From assembly GCF_001650875.1 (NCBI RefSeq), contig NZ_LXYI01000042.1, positions 1 to 64,000 on the forward strand: a DNA stretch of 64,000 nt, written 5' to 3'. Made by a program: the position numbers and the translations under genes. Of the stretch, positions 24,664 through 58,920 are shown in pieces; positions within the stretch are counted from its first letter, which is position 1; each line of letters opens with the position of its first letter. Source of the DNA: Sulfitobacter sp. EhC04. Its GTDB lineage: Bacteria; Pseudomonadota; Alphaproteobacteria; Rhodobacterales; Rhodobacteraceae. The notes beneath the pieces are model-generated. The model was not told where the DNA came from and did no database searches. It saw only the letters and a list, made by a program, of their open reading frames with translations.

Positions 24664-24740
<77 letters not shown>

Positions 24741-43760: not shown

Positions 43761-43855
43761 GATTGAGAGGTTGGTGCGGGCAGGCGCCTCGCCAACCCGG
43801 TCAGATCCGGAAGGAAGCAGCCGTAACGAGTCCCGCTTGGGTCGTTATCAATCTC
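43761..43855 (+). ncRNA. ffs: Signal recognition particle RNA (4.5S type)
   Basis: A bacterial small SRP RNA. The apical domain contains GGTCAGATCCGGAAGGAAGC and then AGCCGTAACGAG, the Ffh-binding internal-loop motif with a GGAA tetraloop. The ends pair through GATTGA (43761-43766) and TCAATC (43848-43853), and GCGGG with CCCGC inside. About 95 nt. It lies upstream of dnaX as in many alphaproteobacteria, although here two genes intervene. Confidence 0.92.
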
Positions 43856-43980
43856 TCACCACAGCTTGGTTTGCGCAGCAAGACGAGCGTAGGCCCGGCA
43901 GGGGCATCCACAGGATGCTCCCGAGACGGCAGCGACCCATTTCAGATCATCATAACTTACCCGTGGGTGACTTCATCCGC

Positions 43981-52796: not shown

Positions 52797-53783
52797 TCAG
52801 GGGGCAACCTCCAGCACGATCTTGCCGATGTGCCCACTGCCTTCCATCCGCGCATGGGCGGCGGCGGCCTCGGCCAGGGGATAGCTGCTGTCCATCACCG
52901 GGGCCACACGCCCCGCCGACAACAGCGGCCAGACCGCCTCTCGCAGTTCCTGCGCAATCCGGGCCTTGGCAAGGTCGCTCTGCGGGCGGAGTGTCGATCC
53001 GGTCATGGTCAGCCGTTTGGTCATCAGCATGGCAAAATTCACCTCGACCTTCGGCCCTTGCAGAAAGGCGATCTGCACAAGGCGGCCGTCCGGGGCCAGC
53101 GCCTTGAGGTTGCGCGGGATATACTCCCCGCCCACCATGTCGAGAATCAGGTCGGCACCGCCCTCGGCCTCCAGCACATCCACGAAATCCATGTCGCGGT
53201 AGTTGATCGCCGCCTCCGCGCCAAGCTCCATGCAGGCGGCACATTTCTTGTCCGTACCCGCCGTGACAAAAACCCGCGCGCCAAAGGCATGGGCAAGCTG
53301 GATCGCCGTTGTGCCGATCCCGGAAGAACCGCCGTGTACCAGAAAGCGTTCCCCGGCCGTCAACCCGCCCCGCATGAAGACGTTGGACCAGACGGTAAAG
53401 AAGGTTTCGGGCAAGCATGCAGCCTCTTTCAGCCCCATGCCATCGGGCACCGGCAGGCAATGCGCCGCAGGTGTGGCCACGTATTCGGCATAGCCGCCGC
53501 CGGGCAGCAGCGCGCAGACCTGATCGCCCAGGGCAATGTCGCTGACGCCTTCGCCCAGCGCCACAACCTCGCCCGAGGCCTCCAGCCCCGGCAGGTCACT
53601 GGCCGTGGGCGGTGGTGCATACATGCCCGCACGCTGCAAGGCATCGGGGCGGTTCACACCGGCATAGGCCACCTTGATCACCACCTGCCCATGGGCAGGC
53701 ACCGGCACCGGGCGGGTTGTCGGTTGCAGGACCTCAGGCCCACCCGGCTTGGTGATCTCGATCGCGGTCATTGTTTCGCTCAT
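52797..53783 (-). CDS. Zeta-crystallin-like NAD(P)H:quinone oxidoreductase
   Basis: A 328-residue medium-chain dehydrogenase/reductase. The conserved sequence VIKVAYAGVNRPDALQRAGMYAPPP and PGLEASGEVVALGEGV mark the group of PIG3-type quinone oxidoreductases; GSSGIGTTAIQLAHAFGARVFVTAG is the NADPH site. There are no zinc ligands, consistent with a quinone or enoyl reductase. AAAGGAA precedes ATG 53783. It is divergent from the acyl-CoA ligase gene. Confidence 0.9.
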   Translation of the reverse strand: MSETMTAIEITKPGGPEVLQPTTRPVPVPAHGQVVIKVAYAGVNRPDALQRAGMYAPPPTASDLPGLEASGEVVALGEGVSDIALGDQVCALLPGGGYAEYVATPAAHCLPVPDGMGLKEAACLPETFFTVWSNVFMRGGLTAGERFLVHGGSSGIGTTAIQLAHAFGARVFVTAGTDKKCAACMELGAEAAINYRDMDFVDVLEAEGGADLILDMVGGEYIPRNLKALAPDGRLVQIAFLQGPKVEVNFAMLMTKRLTMTGSTLRPQSDLAKARIAQELREAVWPLLSAGRVAPVMDSSYPLAEAAAAHARMEGSGHIGKIVLEVAP

Positions 53784-53891
53784 CGGAATTCCTTTCACAT
53801 CACTTGCATTTCAGCATAGGTCTTGCGCGCGCCGCGTCGACCCCGATAACTCTGCGCGAGGGTCAGGAACACCGGAGCAAGAGACAACCGC

Positions 53892-55127
53892 ATGACAGAT
53901 CAGGACAGGTTCAACTGGCATGCCGATGCCCGCCTCTTTGCCGGAGCCGCGCAAGTTCCGCGGCCCGGTGCGGCGGATGTGCCCGCATTCCTGCAGATCG
54001 CCGCAAGCCCGACGGGGGCCTGCCTGACCCGGTTGACAGCCCAGATCGCAGCGCGGGGCAGCTTTTGCGTGAGCGACGGCACGCCGCTGACAGACGCAAA
54101 TGTCCCGCCAACCCATTTCGTCACGCTGACCGGCGGCACCACAGGCCAGCCCAAAGCCATCTTGCGCAGTCAGAGGTCATGGGCTGCCAGCTTCGCGCAA
54201 AATGCGGTGACCTTCGGCATTGGCCCTGAGGACAGCATCGCGGTGCTGGGCAGGCTCAGCCATTCGCTGGCCCTATACGGTGTCCTCGAAGGGCTGCAAC
54301 TGGGTGCGGATGTGCATGTGCTCGACGCTCTTTCGCCCCGCGCGCAGATTGCCCATTGCCTGCGCCATGGGGTGCGGATTCTGTACGCGACGCCAACGCA
54401 ACTGCTGCGCCTCGCCCGCGCTGCAAAAGGCCAGCGCCTGCCGGACCTGCGGCTGATCCTCTGCGGCGGGGGGCCGTTGCAGGCAACGGGCCGCGACGCC
54501 GTCATGCCGTTTGCTCCGAATGCGGCGCTGCATGTCTTTTACGGGGCCGCCGAGACCAGCTTTGTCACCCTCGACGGCGCGAACACCCCCGATGGATCGG
54601 TCGGGCGTGCCTATCCGGGAGTGACGCTGAAGATACTGGACGAGGCCGGGCAGACCACCGACGGGGTCGGCGAGGTCTGGGTGCACAGCCCCTATCTGTT
54701 TGACGGCTACCTCGGTGCGCCGGGTTCTGAGGCCGGGAGACGGGACGGTTTCGTATCTGTGGGCGAGATGGGCCATCTGGATGGGAACGGGCAGCTTTGG
54801 CTCAGGGGGCGCAAAACGCGGATGGTCACGATTGCGGACCAGAATGTGCATCCCGAAGAGGTCGAAAATTTCATCACCGACCTGCCCGGCGTGACCGCCT
54901 GTGCGGTTCTGCCCCGGCCTGACGCCCTGCGGGGTCATCGGCTTGTTGCCTGTCTCGAAGGCCCTGCCGACCCGGCTCTGACTGCCGAGGTCACGGAGGC
55001 CTGCCGACAGAGCTTTGGCCCCCTTGTCGCGCCCCGGACCATTCACTTTTTCAACGATTTTCCCAGGCTGTCATCGGGCAAGACCGATCATACCGAGTTG
55101 ACCCGCTGGCTGGAGGGCAGGCCATGA
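53892..55127 (+). CDS. Short AMP-dependent acyl-CoA ligase (YhfT-like)
   Basis: A 411-residue ANL-superfamily ligase lacking about 100 N-terminal residues of the usual fold. TGGTTGQPKAI is the P-loop, YGAAETSF the A5 motif, GEMGHLD replaces the usual TGD-type motif, and SSGKTDHTELTRWL keeps the catalytic Lys. Family members activate carboxylates to acyl-CoA via AMP. It overlaps the thiolase by four bases (ATGA). Together with adjacent bioY it recalls the yhfT-yhfS-yhfU (bioY) genes of Bacillus, pointing to a pimelate-like or biotin-related acyl substrate. Confidence 0.8.
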   Translation: MTDQDRFNWHADARLFAGAAQVPRPGAADVPAFLQIAASPTGACLTRLTAQIAARGSFCVSDGTPLTDANVPPTHFVTLTGGTTGQPKAILRSQRSWAASFAQNAVTFGIGPEDSIAVLGRLSHSLALYGVLEGLQLGADVHVLDALSPRAQIAHCLRHGVRILYATPTQLLRLARAAKGQRLPDLRLILCGGGPLQATGRDAVMPFAPNAALHVFYGAAETSFVTLDGANTPDGSVGRAYPGVTLKILDEAGQTTDGVGEVWVHSPYLFDGYLGAPGSEAGRRDGFVSVGEMGHLDGNGQLWLRGRKTRMVTIADQNVHPEEVENFITDLPGVTACAVLPRPDALRGHRLVACLEGPADPALTAEVTEACRQSFGPLVAPRTIHFFNDFPRLSSGKTDHTELTRWLEGRP

Positions 55128-56224
55128 GCGCCTATCTGGCCGCAGCCTGCCGCAGTGCGGTAGCACCGCGTGACGGCGCGCTGTCCGCCCTGTCGCTGCA
55201 TGAACTGGGCGCGCCGGTGATCACCGCCGTTCTGGCGCAGGCGGGGCTGGCTGGCGAGGATGTCGATGAGTTGATCGTCAGCAATGCGCTGGGGGCGGGC
55301 GGCAATCCGGCGCGGGTGCTGGCGCTGGCCGCCGGTCTGCCCGAACGGGTGGCAGGGCTGAGCATCGACCGCCAATGTGCAGGCGGTCTGGATGCGGTTG
55401 TCCTGGCGCGGCAGATGGTTCTGGCGGGCGCTGCGGATGTTGTTGTGGCGGGGGGCGTCGAAAGCTACTCGCGCCGCCCCCTGCGCCTGCGGCGCTTTGC
55501 GGATGGCCGCCCGCCAGAGGCTTATGAGCAGGCCCCTTTCACCCCCTGGCCCGACCGTGACCCCGACATGGCAGAGGCCGCGCAGGCGCTGGGGGCCATG
55601 CTGGGCATCAGCCGGGAAGAACAGGACACCTGGGCCATGGCCAGCCATGCCAAGGCGCGGGCGCATGTAGCGGCGGCCGGAGAGATCACCCCCGTCGCGG
55701 GGCTGACGGTGGATGCCTTTACCCGTGATCTGCGGCCCGCATTATGTAGGCGTGCCAAGGTTCTGACCGGCGACATCACCACGGCCAATACCGCCGTGGC
55801 CGCAGATGGCGCGGGATTTGTGGTTGTGGTGTCCAACCGGGTTTCCCGGCACCTGCACGGGCCAACGATAAAAATCCTCGGCGGGGCGACGCGCGGCGGC
55901 ACCCCGGACATGCCCGGTCTGGCCCCGGTCGCCGCAATTGAACATGTGCTGGCCAGTGTCGGCAGGGCCGCGCGTGACCTGCAGGCCGCCGAGGTGATGG
56001 AGGCCTATGCGGTGCAGGCCATCGCCTGTGTGCGCGGGGCTGGCATTGATCCGCAGATCGTCAACACCGGCGGCGGGGCGCTGGCGCGCGGGCATCCTGT
56101 GGGAGCCTCCGGCGCGATCAACGCCGTGCGGCTTTATCATACGCTTTGCAGGACGGGCGGGACCGGGCTGGCCGCCATTGCCGCTGCCGGCGGCATCGGG
56201 ACCGCCCTGTTGTTATCCGCGTGA
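55124..56224 (+). CDS. Thiolase-family protein with altered catalytic residues (YhfS-like)
   Basis: A 366-residue thiolase. The nucleophile Cys85 (DRQCAGGL) and His324 (GGGALARGHPVGASG) are present, but the usual NEAFA Asn is Met292 (VMEAYA), and the C-terminal CxGGGxG Cys is replaced by Ala (about Ala353, AAAGGIG). It may be a condensing or acyl-transfer variant instead of a normal beta-ketothiolase. Size and pairing with an acyl-CoA ligase match YhfS/YhfT. Its 3' end overlaps bioY by 12 bases in convergent orientation. Confidence 0.82.
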   Translation: MSAYLAAACRSAVAPRDGALSALSLHELGAPVITAVLAQAGLAGEDVDELIVSNALGAGGNPARVLALAAGLPERVAGLSIDRQCAGGLDAVVLARQMVLAGAADVVVAGGVESYSRRPLRLRRFADGRPPEAYEQAPFTPWPDRDPDMAEAAQALGAMLGISREEQDTWAMASHAKARAHVAAAGEITPVAGLTVDAFTRDLRPALCRRAKVLTGDITTANTAVAADGAGFVVVVSNRVSRHLHGPTIKILGGATRGGTPDMPGLAPVAAIEHVLASVGRAARDLQAAEVMEAYAVQAIACVRGAGIDPQIVNTGGGALARGHPVGASGAINAVRLYHTLCRTGGTGLAAIAAAGGIGTALLLSA

Positions 56225-56758
56225 CAGCAGGCTTGCGGGACGTGCCCGCGCCAGACCGGCGGTGATCAGGCCTGCCAGGACGGCCTTGACCAGATCCCCT
56301 GGAATGAAGGCGGTCACCAGGGACAGCGACTCAAGCGCGCTCTTGTCCAGCGCTCGCATCAGGCCCGCGACGCCGAAAACATAGATCACGACGATCCCGC
56401 CCAGCACCGATGCGATCCCGGCGGCCCATGCCACCGGCAGGCGGCGGCTCCGCTCCATGATCAGGCCACAGACAAAGGCACCGACCGGCCAGCCGATCAG
56501 AAAGCCGGTGCTGGGTGTCGCAAAGACGCCGAGGCCGCCGCGCCCGCCCGCCAGCAGGGGAAGGCCAAGGGCCACCAATGCGATGAACAGCAGCACGGCC
56601 AGACCGCCGCGCCGAGCGCCCAGAACCGTCCCGCAGAGCATGACGCCCAGCGTCTGCGCCGTGATCGGCACGCCGAAGCCCAGGGTGAACTTGGGGATCA
56701 GGCCAAGTGCCGCGATCAGGGCCGCGAACAGGGCGATGAGGGTCAGTGAGCGTTCCAT
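56213..56758 (-). CDS. bioY: Biotin ECF transporter substrate-binding (S) component BioY
   Basis: A 181-residue membrane protein of six helices with the BioY core FGVPITAQTLGVMLCGTVLGARRG, LPLLAGGRGGLGVFATPSTGFLIGWPVGAF and FIPGDLVKAVLAGLI. It binds biotin and associates with the BioMN module encoded by the next two genes upstream in the same operon (bioM-bioN-bioY). 59 bases separate it from bioN. Confidence 0.93.
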   Translation of the reverse strand: MERSLTLIALFAALIAALGLIPKFTLGFGVPITAQTLGVMLCGTVLGARRGGLAVLLFIALVALGLPLLAGGRGGLGVFATPSTGFLIGWPVGAFVCGLIMERSRRLPVAWAAGIASVLGGIVVIYVFGVAGLMRALDKSALESLSLVTAFIPGDLVKAVLAGLITAGLARARPASLLSRG

Positions 56759-56817
56759 GGGCAGGTTCCTTTTTTCTGTGACCCGCAGCGGTAGGGGCTG
56801 CTGGCGGAGCCGTCAAG

Positions 56818-57414
56818 CTACAACCCGCCCCGCGCGCGCAGGGCGTCGGCCACATGTTCCGCATCGTCAATGGCCAGCACCGCGAAGGGCGTGATGATGC
56901 GCCAGCCCACGCGCCGGACGGCGCGGGCGCGCCATGCCAGTGCCAGCATGCGGCCCTTGTCGGCAAGGACGGGGGTAAAGCGGATCACCAGCGCCATCGC
57001 CAGTTCCACCACATCCGTGCGCAGGCCAAAGGCCCGAAACGGGGTGAGCAGCCAGCGCACAACACCCATCATGTCGCTGAGGCGGGTGGTCATGGTGACC
57101 AGATTGGCCAGCGCCACGGCGGTCATCATGCGCATCACGATCACCAGCCCTGCCAGAAGGTCGGCGGTCACCAGATGCCACAGCAGGATCACCGCCGCAA
57201 AGATCCACAGCGGTTTGAGCCGGACAACCCCAGTGCGCAGGAACAGCGCCCCCGGCAGCGCGTAAAGCCCCAGTGTCAGGGCCAGAAAAACCCCGTGCCA
57301 CAGCAGCGCATCGGTGGCGAACAACACCACCGTCGCCGCGCAGAGCGCCGCCAGCTTGGCCCCGGCGGGCCAGCCGTGGGCGCGGGTCTCAACCGGCGAG
57401 GTCAGAGAGATCAT
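56818..57414 (-). CDS. bioN: Biotin ECF transporter transmembrane (T) component BioN
   Basis: A 198-residue EcfT/CbiQ-type protein with about four helices and the coupling motif AWRARAVRRVGW and ALRARGG near the C-terminus, where the Arg sites dock on the ATPase. It links BioY to BioM. It overlaps the bioM 3' end by 26 bases, an unusual length for coupling. Confidence 0.9.
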   Translation of the reverse strand: MISLTSPVETRAHGWPAGAKLAALCAATVVLFATDALLWHGVFLALTLGLYALPGALFLRTGVVRLKPLWIFAAVILLWHLVTADLLAGLVIVMRMMTAVALANLVTMTTRLSDMMGVVRWLLTPFRAFGLRTDVVELAMALVIRFTPVLADKGRMLALAWRARAVRRVGWRIITPFAVLAIDDAEHVADALRARGGL

Positions 57415-58108
57415 CAGCCGCCCCCAGTTCCATCATGCGTGTCTCGAATGCCTGCAATACGGTCTGCGGCCTGCCCTGCTGCATCACCGCGCCCCCCTCC
57501 AACCAGAGCACATGATCGTAGTCGCGCACCATGCCGGGATCGTGGGTGATATGAACAAGGGTCGCGTCCAGCCCCTTCAACACCCGCGACAGGTGCATGG
57601 AGGTGGGAATATCGAGCCCGGCAAAGGGTTCGTCCAGCAGGATCACCTGCGGGCGCATGGCGAGGATCGACATCAGGCAGACCAATTGCCGCTGGCCCTG
57701 CGACAGCTGATGGATCGCGGCGCGTGCCCAATGGCCCTTGTTGAATTGCCCAAGGATCGCCTGCACCCGATTTGTCACCTTTGCAGGCGCAAGGCCCATC
57801 TGGGTAAGGCCAAAGGCGATTTCCTCTTCCACGGTGGGAAAGATGATCTGGTGGTCAGGGTTCTGGAACAGGATGCCCACGGCAGAAAGCGCCGCCTTGC
57901 GGTCCTTTGCCACCTTGGTCCCGGCGATGCGGACCTGCCCGCTGTCAGCCGCGACCAGCCCTGCGAGCACACGTGCGAAGGAGGTCTTGCCCGATCCGTT
58001 GCGCCCCACCACGCCGATGCGGCGCGCGTCGCTGACCAGGGTAACATCGGACAACACGGTCGCACCATTCGGCGCATATGTGATGTTCTGTGCGTCTATC
58101 AGCGGCAT
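57389..58108 (-). CDS. bioM: Biotin ECF transporter ATP-binding component BioM
   Basis: A 239-residue ABC ATPase. Walker A GRNGSGKTSFAR (about 35-46), Q-loop FQNPDHQII, signature LSQGQRQL, Walker B VILLDEPFAGLD. Neighbours identify it as BioM of a biotin-specific (or biotin-precursor) ECF transporter. It is the first gene of bioMNY; I found no TTATAGATAA-type BioR site in the 110 bases upstream. Confidence 0.92.
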   Translation of the reverse strand: MPLIDAQNITYAPNGATVLSDVTLVSDARRIGVVGRNGSGKTSFARVLAGLVAADSGQVRIAGTKVAKDRKAALSAVGILFQNPDHQIIFPTVEEEIAFGLTQMGLAPAKVTNRVQAILGQFNKGHWARAAIHQLSQGQRQLVCLMSILAMRPQVILLDEPFAGLDIPTSMHLSRVLKGLDATLVHITHDPGMVRDYDHVLWLEGGAVMQQGRPQTVLQAFETRMMELGAADDLSDLAG

Positions 58109-58221
58109 GAGACGAGACTGTTCCGGCTGGGTTCAAGGCGCTATCGCCTAGCATGTCTGGCCGGGGTGTAAAGACAACGGCGGCCGATTGCACCCGTTTT
58201 GGCCCGCGTTCCTGAGGCGGA

Positions 58222-58920
58222 TTAATCCCGTGGCGCAGTCCAAGACCCGGGCAGATCGCCCTTGGGAAAGCGGTTGGGGGCCTTGATGTGGCTGAGAATC
58301 CAGTTCGGGCCCGCCATCAGCTTGCTCAGGGTCGGGCTCTGGTTCACCTGCGCCTTGAGCTTTTCGATCTGCATCACATTGTCGACGCGCCGGTCCAGAA
58401 AGGCCCAGCTGCGCGCGTGGCCTTCGCTGTCGTCACCCAGCCAATACAACACGGTCGAGGAATAGACACCGGCCAGGGTGGCCCGTTTGGTGTACCAGTT
58501 TACATCCTCGGAGGTGTCGCCCAGCGCATCCCAGATGGCATCGCAGGTTTCCCAGATCAGTTTCGCCCCATCGGGCGCATATTGCGGCAGGGCAAACAGG
58601 GTGGTGCCGCGCCGGACCAGTTCCTTGTCCTGCACCTGCTCCAGCCGCAGGCGAACCGCCCGTGCCACGCGGTCGCGGAACCGCAGGTCCTGAAGGTTTT
58701 CGGATTTCAGCGCGGCCAGCATCGCGGCGTCCCCCTGCCGGTGATAGGCCACGGCCAGATCGACCGCCCCGCGCGGACAGACCGCGCGCGCCACTGTCGG
58801 GTCCACACCGCTCTCGTCGATGGCGGCCTTGAATGTCACCTCCGACCAGCCATCGAAGGGCACATGCATCAATGCCGCATCCAGCAGTCTGAGCTTGGGG
58901 TCGCTTGGTGCCTTGGTCAT
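58222..58920 (-). CDS. COQ9-family ubiquinone biosynthesis protein
   Basis: A 232-residue protein of the bacterial COQ9 family: an N-terminal TetR-like helical part (LLDAALMHVPFDGWSEVTFKAAIDESGV), and then a lipid-binding C-terminal domain with YWLGDDSEGHARSWAFLDRRVDNVM. In mitochondria COQ9 assists hydroxylation of ubiquinone precursors; the bacterial role is probably similar. AAAGGAG precedes ATG 58920. Its 5' leader has a 30-base tandem duplication (58936-58982). It is divergent from rpsU. Confidence 0.88.
   Translation of the reverse strand: MTKAPSDPKLRLLDAALMHVPFDGWSEVTFKAAIDESGVDPTVARAVCPRGAVDLAVAYHRQGDAAMLAALKSENLQDLRFRDRVARAVRLRLEQVQDKELVRRGTTLFALPQYAPDGAKLIWETCDAIWDALGDTSEDVNWYTKRATLAGVYSSTVLYWLGDDSEGHARSWAFLDRRVDNVMQIEKLKAQVNQSPTLSKLMAGPNWILSHIKAPNRFPKGDLPGSWTAPRD

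Follow-up and report, generated by a model that had tools for sequence, protein, structure and literature searches.

A ligase–thiolase gene pair stands beside the genes of a biotin transporter in Sulfitobacter sp. EhC04 (Rhodobacteraceae) and may serve to rebuild the side chain of biotin. The window, a stretch of 64,000 nucleotides (contig NZ_LXYI01000042.1, positions 1 to 64,000 of the forward strand), carries at 53892–58108 the genes of a short AMP-forming ligase (YhfT type), a thiolase homolog (YhfS type) and BioMNY, a transporter of the energy-coupling factor (ECF) type. The pair and bioMNY are all real, as a five-gene set. By its catalytic residues, YhfS is not an ordinary thiolase, and as judged from phylogenetic trees the pair shares its origin with yhfTS of Bacillus. 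The reading favoured here, held tentatively and at somewhat less than an even chance, is that BioY imports biotin together with shortened vitamers (norbiotins) and that the pair begins the rebuilding of their side chain. Its substrate, direction, carbon donor and later steps, and the regulation in this species, are all points that we infer.

A five-gene set around BioMNY

The genes of the pair lie on the forward strand and were assigned from a list of open reading frames (ORFs) and by Pfam. The YhfT-type ligase of the ANL family (53892–55127, 411 aa) matches AMP-binding (119.1 bits) and AMP-binding_C (48.8 bits), and the thiolase homolog (55124–56224, 366 aa) matches Thiolase_N (126.7 bits) and Thiolase_C (84.8 bits). 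In the forward sequence, the ligase stop and the thiolase start share an ATGA (55124–55127), by which the two genes are likely to be translationally coupled. The thiolase gene and bioY overlap by 12 bases at their convergent 3′ ends (coordinates 56213–56224). Both the coupling and the convergence had been described in an earlier note made from the letters of the window, and the overlap and the convergence hold. As the pair is convergent with bioY, pair and bioY do not form a single transcript in the window.

The transporter genes are on the reverse strand: bioY, the S component (56213–56758, 181 aa; Pfam BioY, 121.5 bits), bioN, the T component of the CbiQ family (56818–57414, 198 aa; Pfam CbiQ, 30.6 bits, cut-off 25), and bioM, the A component, an ATP-binding cassette (ABC) ATPase (57389–58108, 239 aa; Pfam ABC_tran, 90.9 bits). 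A BioY-family S component is thus found with adjacent T and A components, all three above their Pfam cut-offs, which confirms the full BioMNY set behind the biotin ECF transporter announced by the note.

YhfS lacks a catalytic cysteine of thiolases

Thiolases use Cys89 as the nucleophile, an oxyanion hole made of Asn316 and His348, and Cys378 as the acceptor of the substrate proton (PMC3406046; this and all other papers are cited from excerpts). The window's YhfS keeps the nucleophile (Cys85) and the histidine (His324), and carries Met292 where thiolases have Asn316 and Ala353 where they have Cys378 (Zoogloea numbering). Set against the features of catalytic type I/II thiolases, it therefore has the nucleophilic cysteine and the histidine of the GHP motif and is devoid of the acid/base Cys378. 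This pattern runs through the family. Cys89 and His348 are retained in 46/46 YhfS rows, and Cys378 is replaced in 44 of the 45 readable ones (28 Ala, 13 Gly and 3 Pro), a frameshifted row being set aside. Position 316 is Met in 31/45 and Asn in 14/45. Control thiolases have Cys-Asn-His-Cys in 53/53 cases (52 distinct), and Cys-Met-His-Ala occurs in 120/120 proteins, i.e. the window's and 119 relatives among the matches listed. Uniform replacement of Cys378 beside an intact nucleophile argues for selected new chemistry rather than decay. Decarboxylating ketosynthases are likewise not known to have this cysteine.

The predicted structure of YhfS (mean predicted local distance difference test, pLDDT, 90.9) has biosynthetic thiolases as its best structural matches, and the protein scores below the equivalog cut-off of NCBIfam PRK06690 (214 versus 498 bits). 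This model was rejected as a finder of YhfS, since its top listed matches in 118 relatives, at up to 284 bits, belong to other thiolases and outscore the window's protein. The row set aside above, at L212:8801-9836, is a thiolase read in two frames and reflects a frameshift or a sequencing error.

The ligase is N-terminally short, its Pfam match starting at profile position 166 of 384, and its best NCBIfam model, PRK07638, scores 208 bits, below the cut-off of 518. Nevertheless, as expected for ANL enzymes, it has an adenylation core and a C-terminal lysine (both Pfam domains); Gly82, Lys88, Glu221, Gly396 and Lys397 are invariant in 24 ligase rows, and the predicted structure has a pLDDT of 90.5. 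It is a putative former of coenzyme A (CoA) thioesters.

Common descent with the Bacillus pair

A scan for BirA-type boxes returned at least 120 loci, 40 of them with BioY by tblastn. In three of these 40, from Listeria grayi (L064), Alkalibacillus (L078) and Metabacillus (L157), bioY is followed by YhfT. YhfS comes next in L064 and L157; L078 stops within the ligase, and the Alkalibacillus thiolase is visible in two other loci (L163 and L192). Seventeen genomes from BirA-box loci were searched and seven regions opened. Here, YhfS was distinguished from control thiolases by the ligase match next to it (7/30 loci), before the residues were counted but with the motifs in view. The tandem bioY-yhfT-yhfS occurs in Bacillus halotolerans (L195), Bacillus sp. 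SKDU12 (L196), Alkalibacillus and L. grayi, and Pelosinus has the order bioY-yhfS-yhfT. Without bioY, the two genes are adjacent in Alicyclobacillus and divergent in Terrilactibacillus.

A tree splits 45 YhfS proteins from 53 control thiolases taken from the genomes sampled (support 100/96; 100% of 200 bootstrap trees), the two-frame thiolase being left out. In a second tree, 51 YhfT proteins, the window's included, are split from 13 control ligases (100/99); the ligases of L. grayi, Pelosinus, Alicyclobacillus and Terrilactibacillus branch closest to the controls, some on long branches. Such grouping makes the comparison with Bacillus one of common descent, not of resemblance. Alphaproteobacterial and Bacillota rows are interleaved in the YhfS tree, which suggests transfer. 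The note's statement that the same trio occurs in the Bacillus yhf operon is borne out by the two Bacillus tandems and the shared tree groups. The layout differs, the genes being co-directional in Bacillus and the pair convergent with bioY in the window.

Linkage to BioY in Alphaproteobacteria

A plasmid search with the ligase matched 147 records, of which eight were opened. The pair has bioMNY beside it in seven of the eight loci; in the Rhizobium leguminosarum plasmid locus, the pair is present and bioMNY absent. One locus (L038) carried no annotation and was read from its ORFs, and the Sinorhizobium meliloti ligase is an unannotated ORF.

A ligase profile was used to search 385 genomes of the class and 149 from the family; as most of its 16 rows are ligases beside BioY, the resulting survey may be biased towards linked members. 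Four (class) and 10 (family) ligase candidates were scored per genome, and counts come from the best matches listed. Carriers were delimited by a gap in the scores, at ≥398 bits for the class (next 330) and ≥307.8 bits for the family (next 290.8). Below the gap, 3/17 matches of 307–330 bits (class) and 5/6 of 279–291 bits (family) were opened. The gene content of loci was read by tblastn of a reference set. Above the gap stand 33 genomes, including the window's, with an adjacent thiolase in 30/33 and BioY in the same stretch in 26/33. Seven lower-scoring ligase loci taken as controls (L231–L234 and L236–L238) have no BioY (0/7). One genome (279 bits) proved to be a true linked case below the gap; its addition gives 34 alphaproteobacterial carriers.

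In the family sample, YhfT occurs in 25/149 genomes, with BioY in the same stretch of ∼18 kb in 22/25. This is the linkage across genomes for which the note had asked a count. The binomial probability of such co-location is 3e-48 under random placement and 3e-26 at ten times that rate, figures that overstate independence because the genomes are related. Genome-wide, BioY is present in all 25 family carriers and in 102/124 non-carriers (Fisher p 0.026).

Several loci depart from the common pattern. Of the seven above-gap genomes without BioY in the stretch, three from one genus (loci L203, L204 and L205) have YhfT without YhfS or nearby BioY. Their loci hold short-chain (SDR) and medium-chain (MDR) dehydrogenase/reductase genes, tblastn shows a thioesterase in two of them, and the genomes have bioB and bioD. 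At L213:4787-13053, two YhfT genes enclose a thioesterase and are accompanied by bioMNY and YhfS. In another genome (G574), the ligase match has one in-frame TGA. A nitroreductase-family protein of ∼226 aa, with no close NCBIfam model, is encoded between bioY/bioN and the pair at L201:7330-7950 and in 10 similar loci; a nitroreductase accompanies the set in 11 of the 33 above-gap carriers. A search for shared neighbours found an MDR gene in 6/33 loci and an SDR gene in 5/33 (three from one genus).

Biotin genes in carrier genomes

The window's genome, 99.9% complete, has no bioB above the cut-off (best match 30.3 bits versus 225), and a search for bioD at E 1e-4 finds no match. It possesses a biotin ligase and, by genome search, a single BioY. 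Taken together, these traits make the window's BioY the obvious route for biotin, and the protein is predicted to transport this vitamin. By the known pathway, pimelate, 7-keto-8-aminopelargonic acid (KAPA) and desthiobiotin would be dead ends in this genome.

Among the 41 carriers searched, BioY and biotin ligase are each found in 41/41 (34/34 of the alphaproteobacterial ones). Genes above the cut-off are scarcer for bioB (10/41; 5/34 alphaproteobacterial and 5/7 Bacillota) and bioD (6/41; 3/34 and 3/7). Most alphaproteobacterial carriers look biotin-auxotrophic on this count. No bioB above the cut-off is found in L. grayi or Alkalibacillus. In Bacillus sp. SKDU12 and Alicyclobacillus, bioB is present and bioD unmatched, so the bioD search may miss some bioD genes. 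Across the family sample, few genomes have bioB at all (20/149). The pair remains present in genomes without bioB and bioD but is not enriched in them.

This distribution bears on precursor activation, in which the pair would supply biotin synthesis with pimeloyl-CoA that it makes or activates, for instance out of glutarate or pimelate. The Bacillota carriers with bioB (5/7) and bioD (3/7) would suit such a role. It is opposed by the lack of a bioB above the cut-off in 29/34 alphaproteobacterial carriers, in L. grayi and in Alkalibacillus, by the same deficit for bioD in 31/34, and by the state of both genes in the window's genome, and we regard it as very improbable. The note had proposed import and CoA activation of a biotin precursor such as a pimelate-like acid. 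Its general idea, that BioY imports something which the ligase activates, is retained, as is the linkage across phyla; the pimelate-like acid is abandoned for the window's genome, where pimelate activation is ruled out unless a novel route replaces bioD and bioB.

Another cargo has to be weighed here. If the linked BioY proteins were PanU-like, the pair might act on pantothenate or another acid related to CoA precursors. Indeed, YhfU, encoded beside yhfTS, is needed for pantothenate uptake in a Bacillus subtilis panC mutant (PMC11487621), and nadABC and panBC lie by the cluster in Pseudosulfitobacter. This idea appears quite unlikely for the window, given a genome with a single BioY, a biotin ligase and neither bioB nor bioD above the cut-off; among the seven annotated plasmid loci opened, panBC is found by the cluster in one. 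The Pseudosulfitobacter locus (L034:1-9830) is a plasmid-borne vitamin island, in which the genes for nadA, L-aspartate oxidase, nadC, panB and pantoate–beta-alanine ligase run into ligase-thiolase-nitroreductase-bioYNM.

Regulation and neighbouring enzymes

In B. subtilis, binding of BirA to the yhfU operator requires biotin and ATP (PMC4016012), and in Staphylococcus aureus a reporter strain shows repression of the yhfS-yhfT promoter by biotin (PMC6391492). Expression is therefore expected under biotin scarcity. BirA-type boxes ahead of bioY and the pair are seen in the three Bacillota loci named above, among the matches listed. In Paracoccus denitrificans, bioMNY has no predicted BioR site (PMC4554459).

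In other genomes, enzymes encoded near the pair suggest chain extension by a reductive cycle. The L. grayi locus combines an SDR (best model 3-oxoacyl-acyl carrier protein reductase, 158 bits), a flavoprotein (best model FabK, 162 bits) and a weak MaoC match (22 bits), all three below their cut-offs. A FabK-like protein in Alicyclobacillus (297 bits) and a FabZ-like protein in Pelosinus (66 bits) are also below the NCBIfam cut-off. MaoC domains occur at the Alkalibacillus and Microvirga loci, and thioesterase and MDR genes at the S. meliloti locus. Thus, ketoreductase-, dehydratase- and enoyl reductase-like genes, named from sub-cut-off scores, stand together in L. grayi and singly elsewhere.

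These neighbours are pertinent to the degradation of a biotin side chain, the other possibility raised by the note, in which the pair would activate and shorten imported biotin or analogues by beta-oxidation. A ligase is the textbook start of beta-oxidation and a thiolase its textbook end. Hydratases of the MaoC type accompany the pair in Alkalibacillus and Microvirga. Yet the genes are expected to be expressed at low biotin, the pair is found in genomes without bioB, the FabK- and FabZ-like neighbours are of the reductive kind, YhfS has lost the Cys378 that protonates the leaving enolate, and no acyl-CoA dehydrogenase was recognized beside the loci, whose neighbours were not annotated systematically. 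Degradation is thus improbable and fits poorly with low-biotin expression in Bacillota and with reductive neighbours; rebuilding of the side chain fits better.

Proposed route and its rivals

In the proposed route, BioMNY would take up biotin and derivatives whose valeryl chain has been cut by beta-oxidation (bisnor- and tetranorbiotin). YhfT would adenylate the short carboxylate and transfer it to a thiol, that of CoA or another. From there the acyl group would pass to the nucleophilic cysteine of YhfS and be extended by two carbons; since YhfS has no Cys378, the donor would be one that needs no deprotonation, e.g. malonyl-CoA, which would give off CO2. Attached or general enzymes would carry out the reduction, the dehydration and the enoyl reduction, and release would yield biotin for biotin ligase. 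Uptake, activation and reductive lengthening at low biotin, in cells seemingly unable to build the ring, point to acids that bear the ring and a short chain, namely norbiotins.

The same parts can be assembled otherwise. At low biotin, acetyl-CoA carboxylase would fail; the ligase could then activate scavenged or recycled fatty acids, and YhfS and the reductive enzymes extend them, which would protect membrane lipids without making biotin. We judge this unlikely. The Bacillota pair is repressed by biotin along with bioY, reductive partner genes are at hand, the L. grayi YhfS keeps the Cys378 that deprotonates acetyl-CoA, and YhfT of B. subtilis supplies activated 3-hydroxy fatty acids for surfactin (PMC10988940). 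However, the base for the use of acetyl-CoA is absent in 44/45 YhfS, a malonyl-CoA donor would defeat the purpose, and the linkage with bioMNY in alphaproteobacteria, where neither BirA nor BioR control is seen, is not explained by lipid protection alone.

A retained Cys and His with Cys378 lost is also what one would expect of an acyltransferase. The ligase might activate biotin itself, and YhfS pass the biotinyl group from CoA through its cysteine to an acceptor, or the CoA ester simply retain biotin in the cell, with no C–C chemistry at all. Close linkage to an importer agrees with this. Transfer or trapping leaves the ketoreductase-, dehydratase- and enoyl reductase-like neighbours unexplained, and biotin ligase is already present in 41/41 carriers; we consider it rather unlikely.

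Several observations weigh against the rebuilding of norbiotins. With 3-hydroxy fatty acids, B. subtilis YhfT reportedly forms an acyl-AMP and no CoA thioester, and the acyl group goes to acyl carrier protein (review, PMC10988940). The requirement of YhfU for pantothenate uptake in this organism (PMC11487621) implies that biotin specificity cannot be assumed for the BioY proteins linked to the pair. The YhfS of L. grayi (L198:6547-7725), from the most complete operon, retains Cys378; it is the sole readable row to do so and sits on a long branch beside the control thiolases. Among the matches listed, the pair is present in just 3/40 BioY loci behind BirA boxes. The 102/124 family genomes with BioY and without the pair mean that most BioY genomes do without it, and the pair is not enriched in genomes lacking bioB (bioB in 2/25 carriers versus 18/124 others, p 0.53). 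The window has no BioR-type site (up to one mismatch), and no ketoreductase or dehydratase is attached to the pair there, only a flanking MDR reductase. The names of the partner enzymes are based on NCBIfam scores below the cut-off, and with neighbours not annotated systematically some acyl-CoA dehydrogenases beside the loci may have been missed.

Flanks of the module

The flanking reductase (52797–53798, reverse strand) is a PIG3-type MDR NAD(P)H:quinone reductase whose gene diverges from that of the ligase (NCBIfam TIGR02824, 469.7 bits, above the cut-off). It occupies the same place in a genome of the same genus and is a candidate module member, unproven as such. On the other side, COQ9 begins at 58222 (Pfam and NCBIfam). 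In the window's genus, the module is located between the qor-type reductase and coq9 (52797–58920 in the window, and L208). In L215, L217, L219, L222 and L225, read by eye, it lies beside metF- and aroQ-like genes, so that the insertion sites of the module differ. The only RNA-family matches above the gathering score in the window are tRNA-Met (24664–24740) and the small signal recognition particle (SRP) RNA (43764–43861).

Relation to known systems

The pair and its biotin regulation are already known, and a database names some relatives YhfT. In the excerpts, yhfS-yhfT are named in the biotin regulon of Bacillus and Staphylococcus with a putative function or none (PMC6391492, PMC7235819, PMC11089781 and PMC4016012). 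B. subtilis yhfUTS (YhfU/PanU, YhfT and YhfS) comprises the same three families; its Bacillus relatives fall into the same tree groups as the window's pair, and YhfS of two Bacillus genomes is likewise without Cys378. The B. subtilis genes are co-directional and bound by BirA (PMC4016012), whereas the window has convergent genes, a dedicated bioMN and no BioR-type site, a shorter ligase and a YhfS that has additionally lost Asn316. S. aureus yhfS-yhfT, likened here by description and not by sequence, encode a ligase and an acetyltransferase homolog controlled by BirA together with bioY, but stand apart from bioY (PMC6391492 and PMC7235819).

Other parallels are partial. Rhodobacter capsulatus has a biotin ECF transporter of the BioMNY type; the window, compared with it by description, likewise has dedicated genes for the A, T and S components in a row (Pfam). 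Zoogloea ramigera PhaA, a biosynthetic thiolase, shares its fold, nucleophilic Cys and His with YhfS; Cys378 is replaced in YhfS, as is Asn316 in the window. The Sal/Ltp2 thiolase-like aldolases also combine a thiolase fold with altered catalytic residues and act on acyl-CoA side chains (PMC12329534); they have lost the nucleophilic Cys, which YhfS keeps in 46/46. Roseobacters with bioB only are auxotrophs that live on a biotin vitamer by salvage of desthiobiotin (PMC9561691); this requires bioB, which the window's genome does not have above the cut-off.

What appears to be new is the family-wide loss of Cys378, the carriers devoid of bioB and the recurring reductive partners, none of which figures in the excerpted passages on the pair. 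No bacterial norbiotin salvage is named in the titles and abstract openings of the papers listed, all of them from the open-licence literature.

Stated for bacteria at large, many auxotrophs among them, the proposal is one of biotin repair: shortened biotin catabolites would be imported via BioY and their valeryl chain rebuilt with a dedicated ligase and a condensing enzyme derived from a thiolase and free of Cys378. In this broad form it seems possible, at a chance well short of even. The pair accompanies BioY even in genomes that lack bioB and bioD, which speaks against precursor activation in them and limits the range of substrates. The missing catalytic cysteine offers enzymology a sharp and cheap handle, by which the unexplained function of yhfTS becomes testable. 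Biotin repair, if true, would give yhfTS a function and bacteria a route to biotin that needs no bio synthesis genes. Norbiotin salvage, if true, would let biotin catabolites join the vitamin economy of sea and soil, in which thiamin breakdown products reportedly have such a place (PMC10470507).

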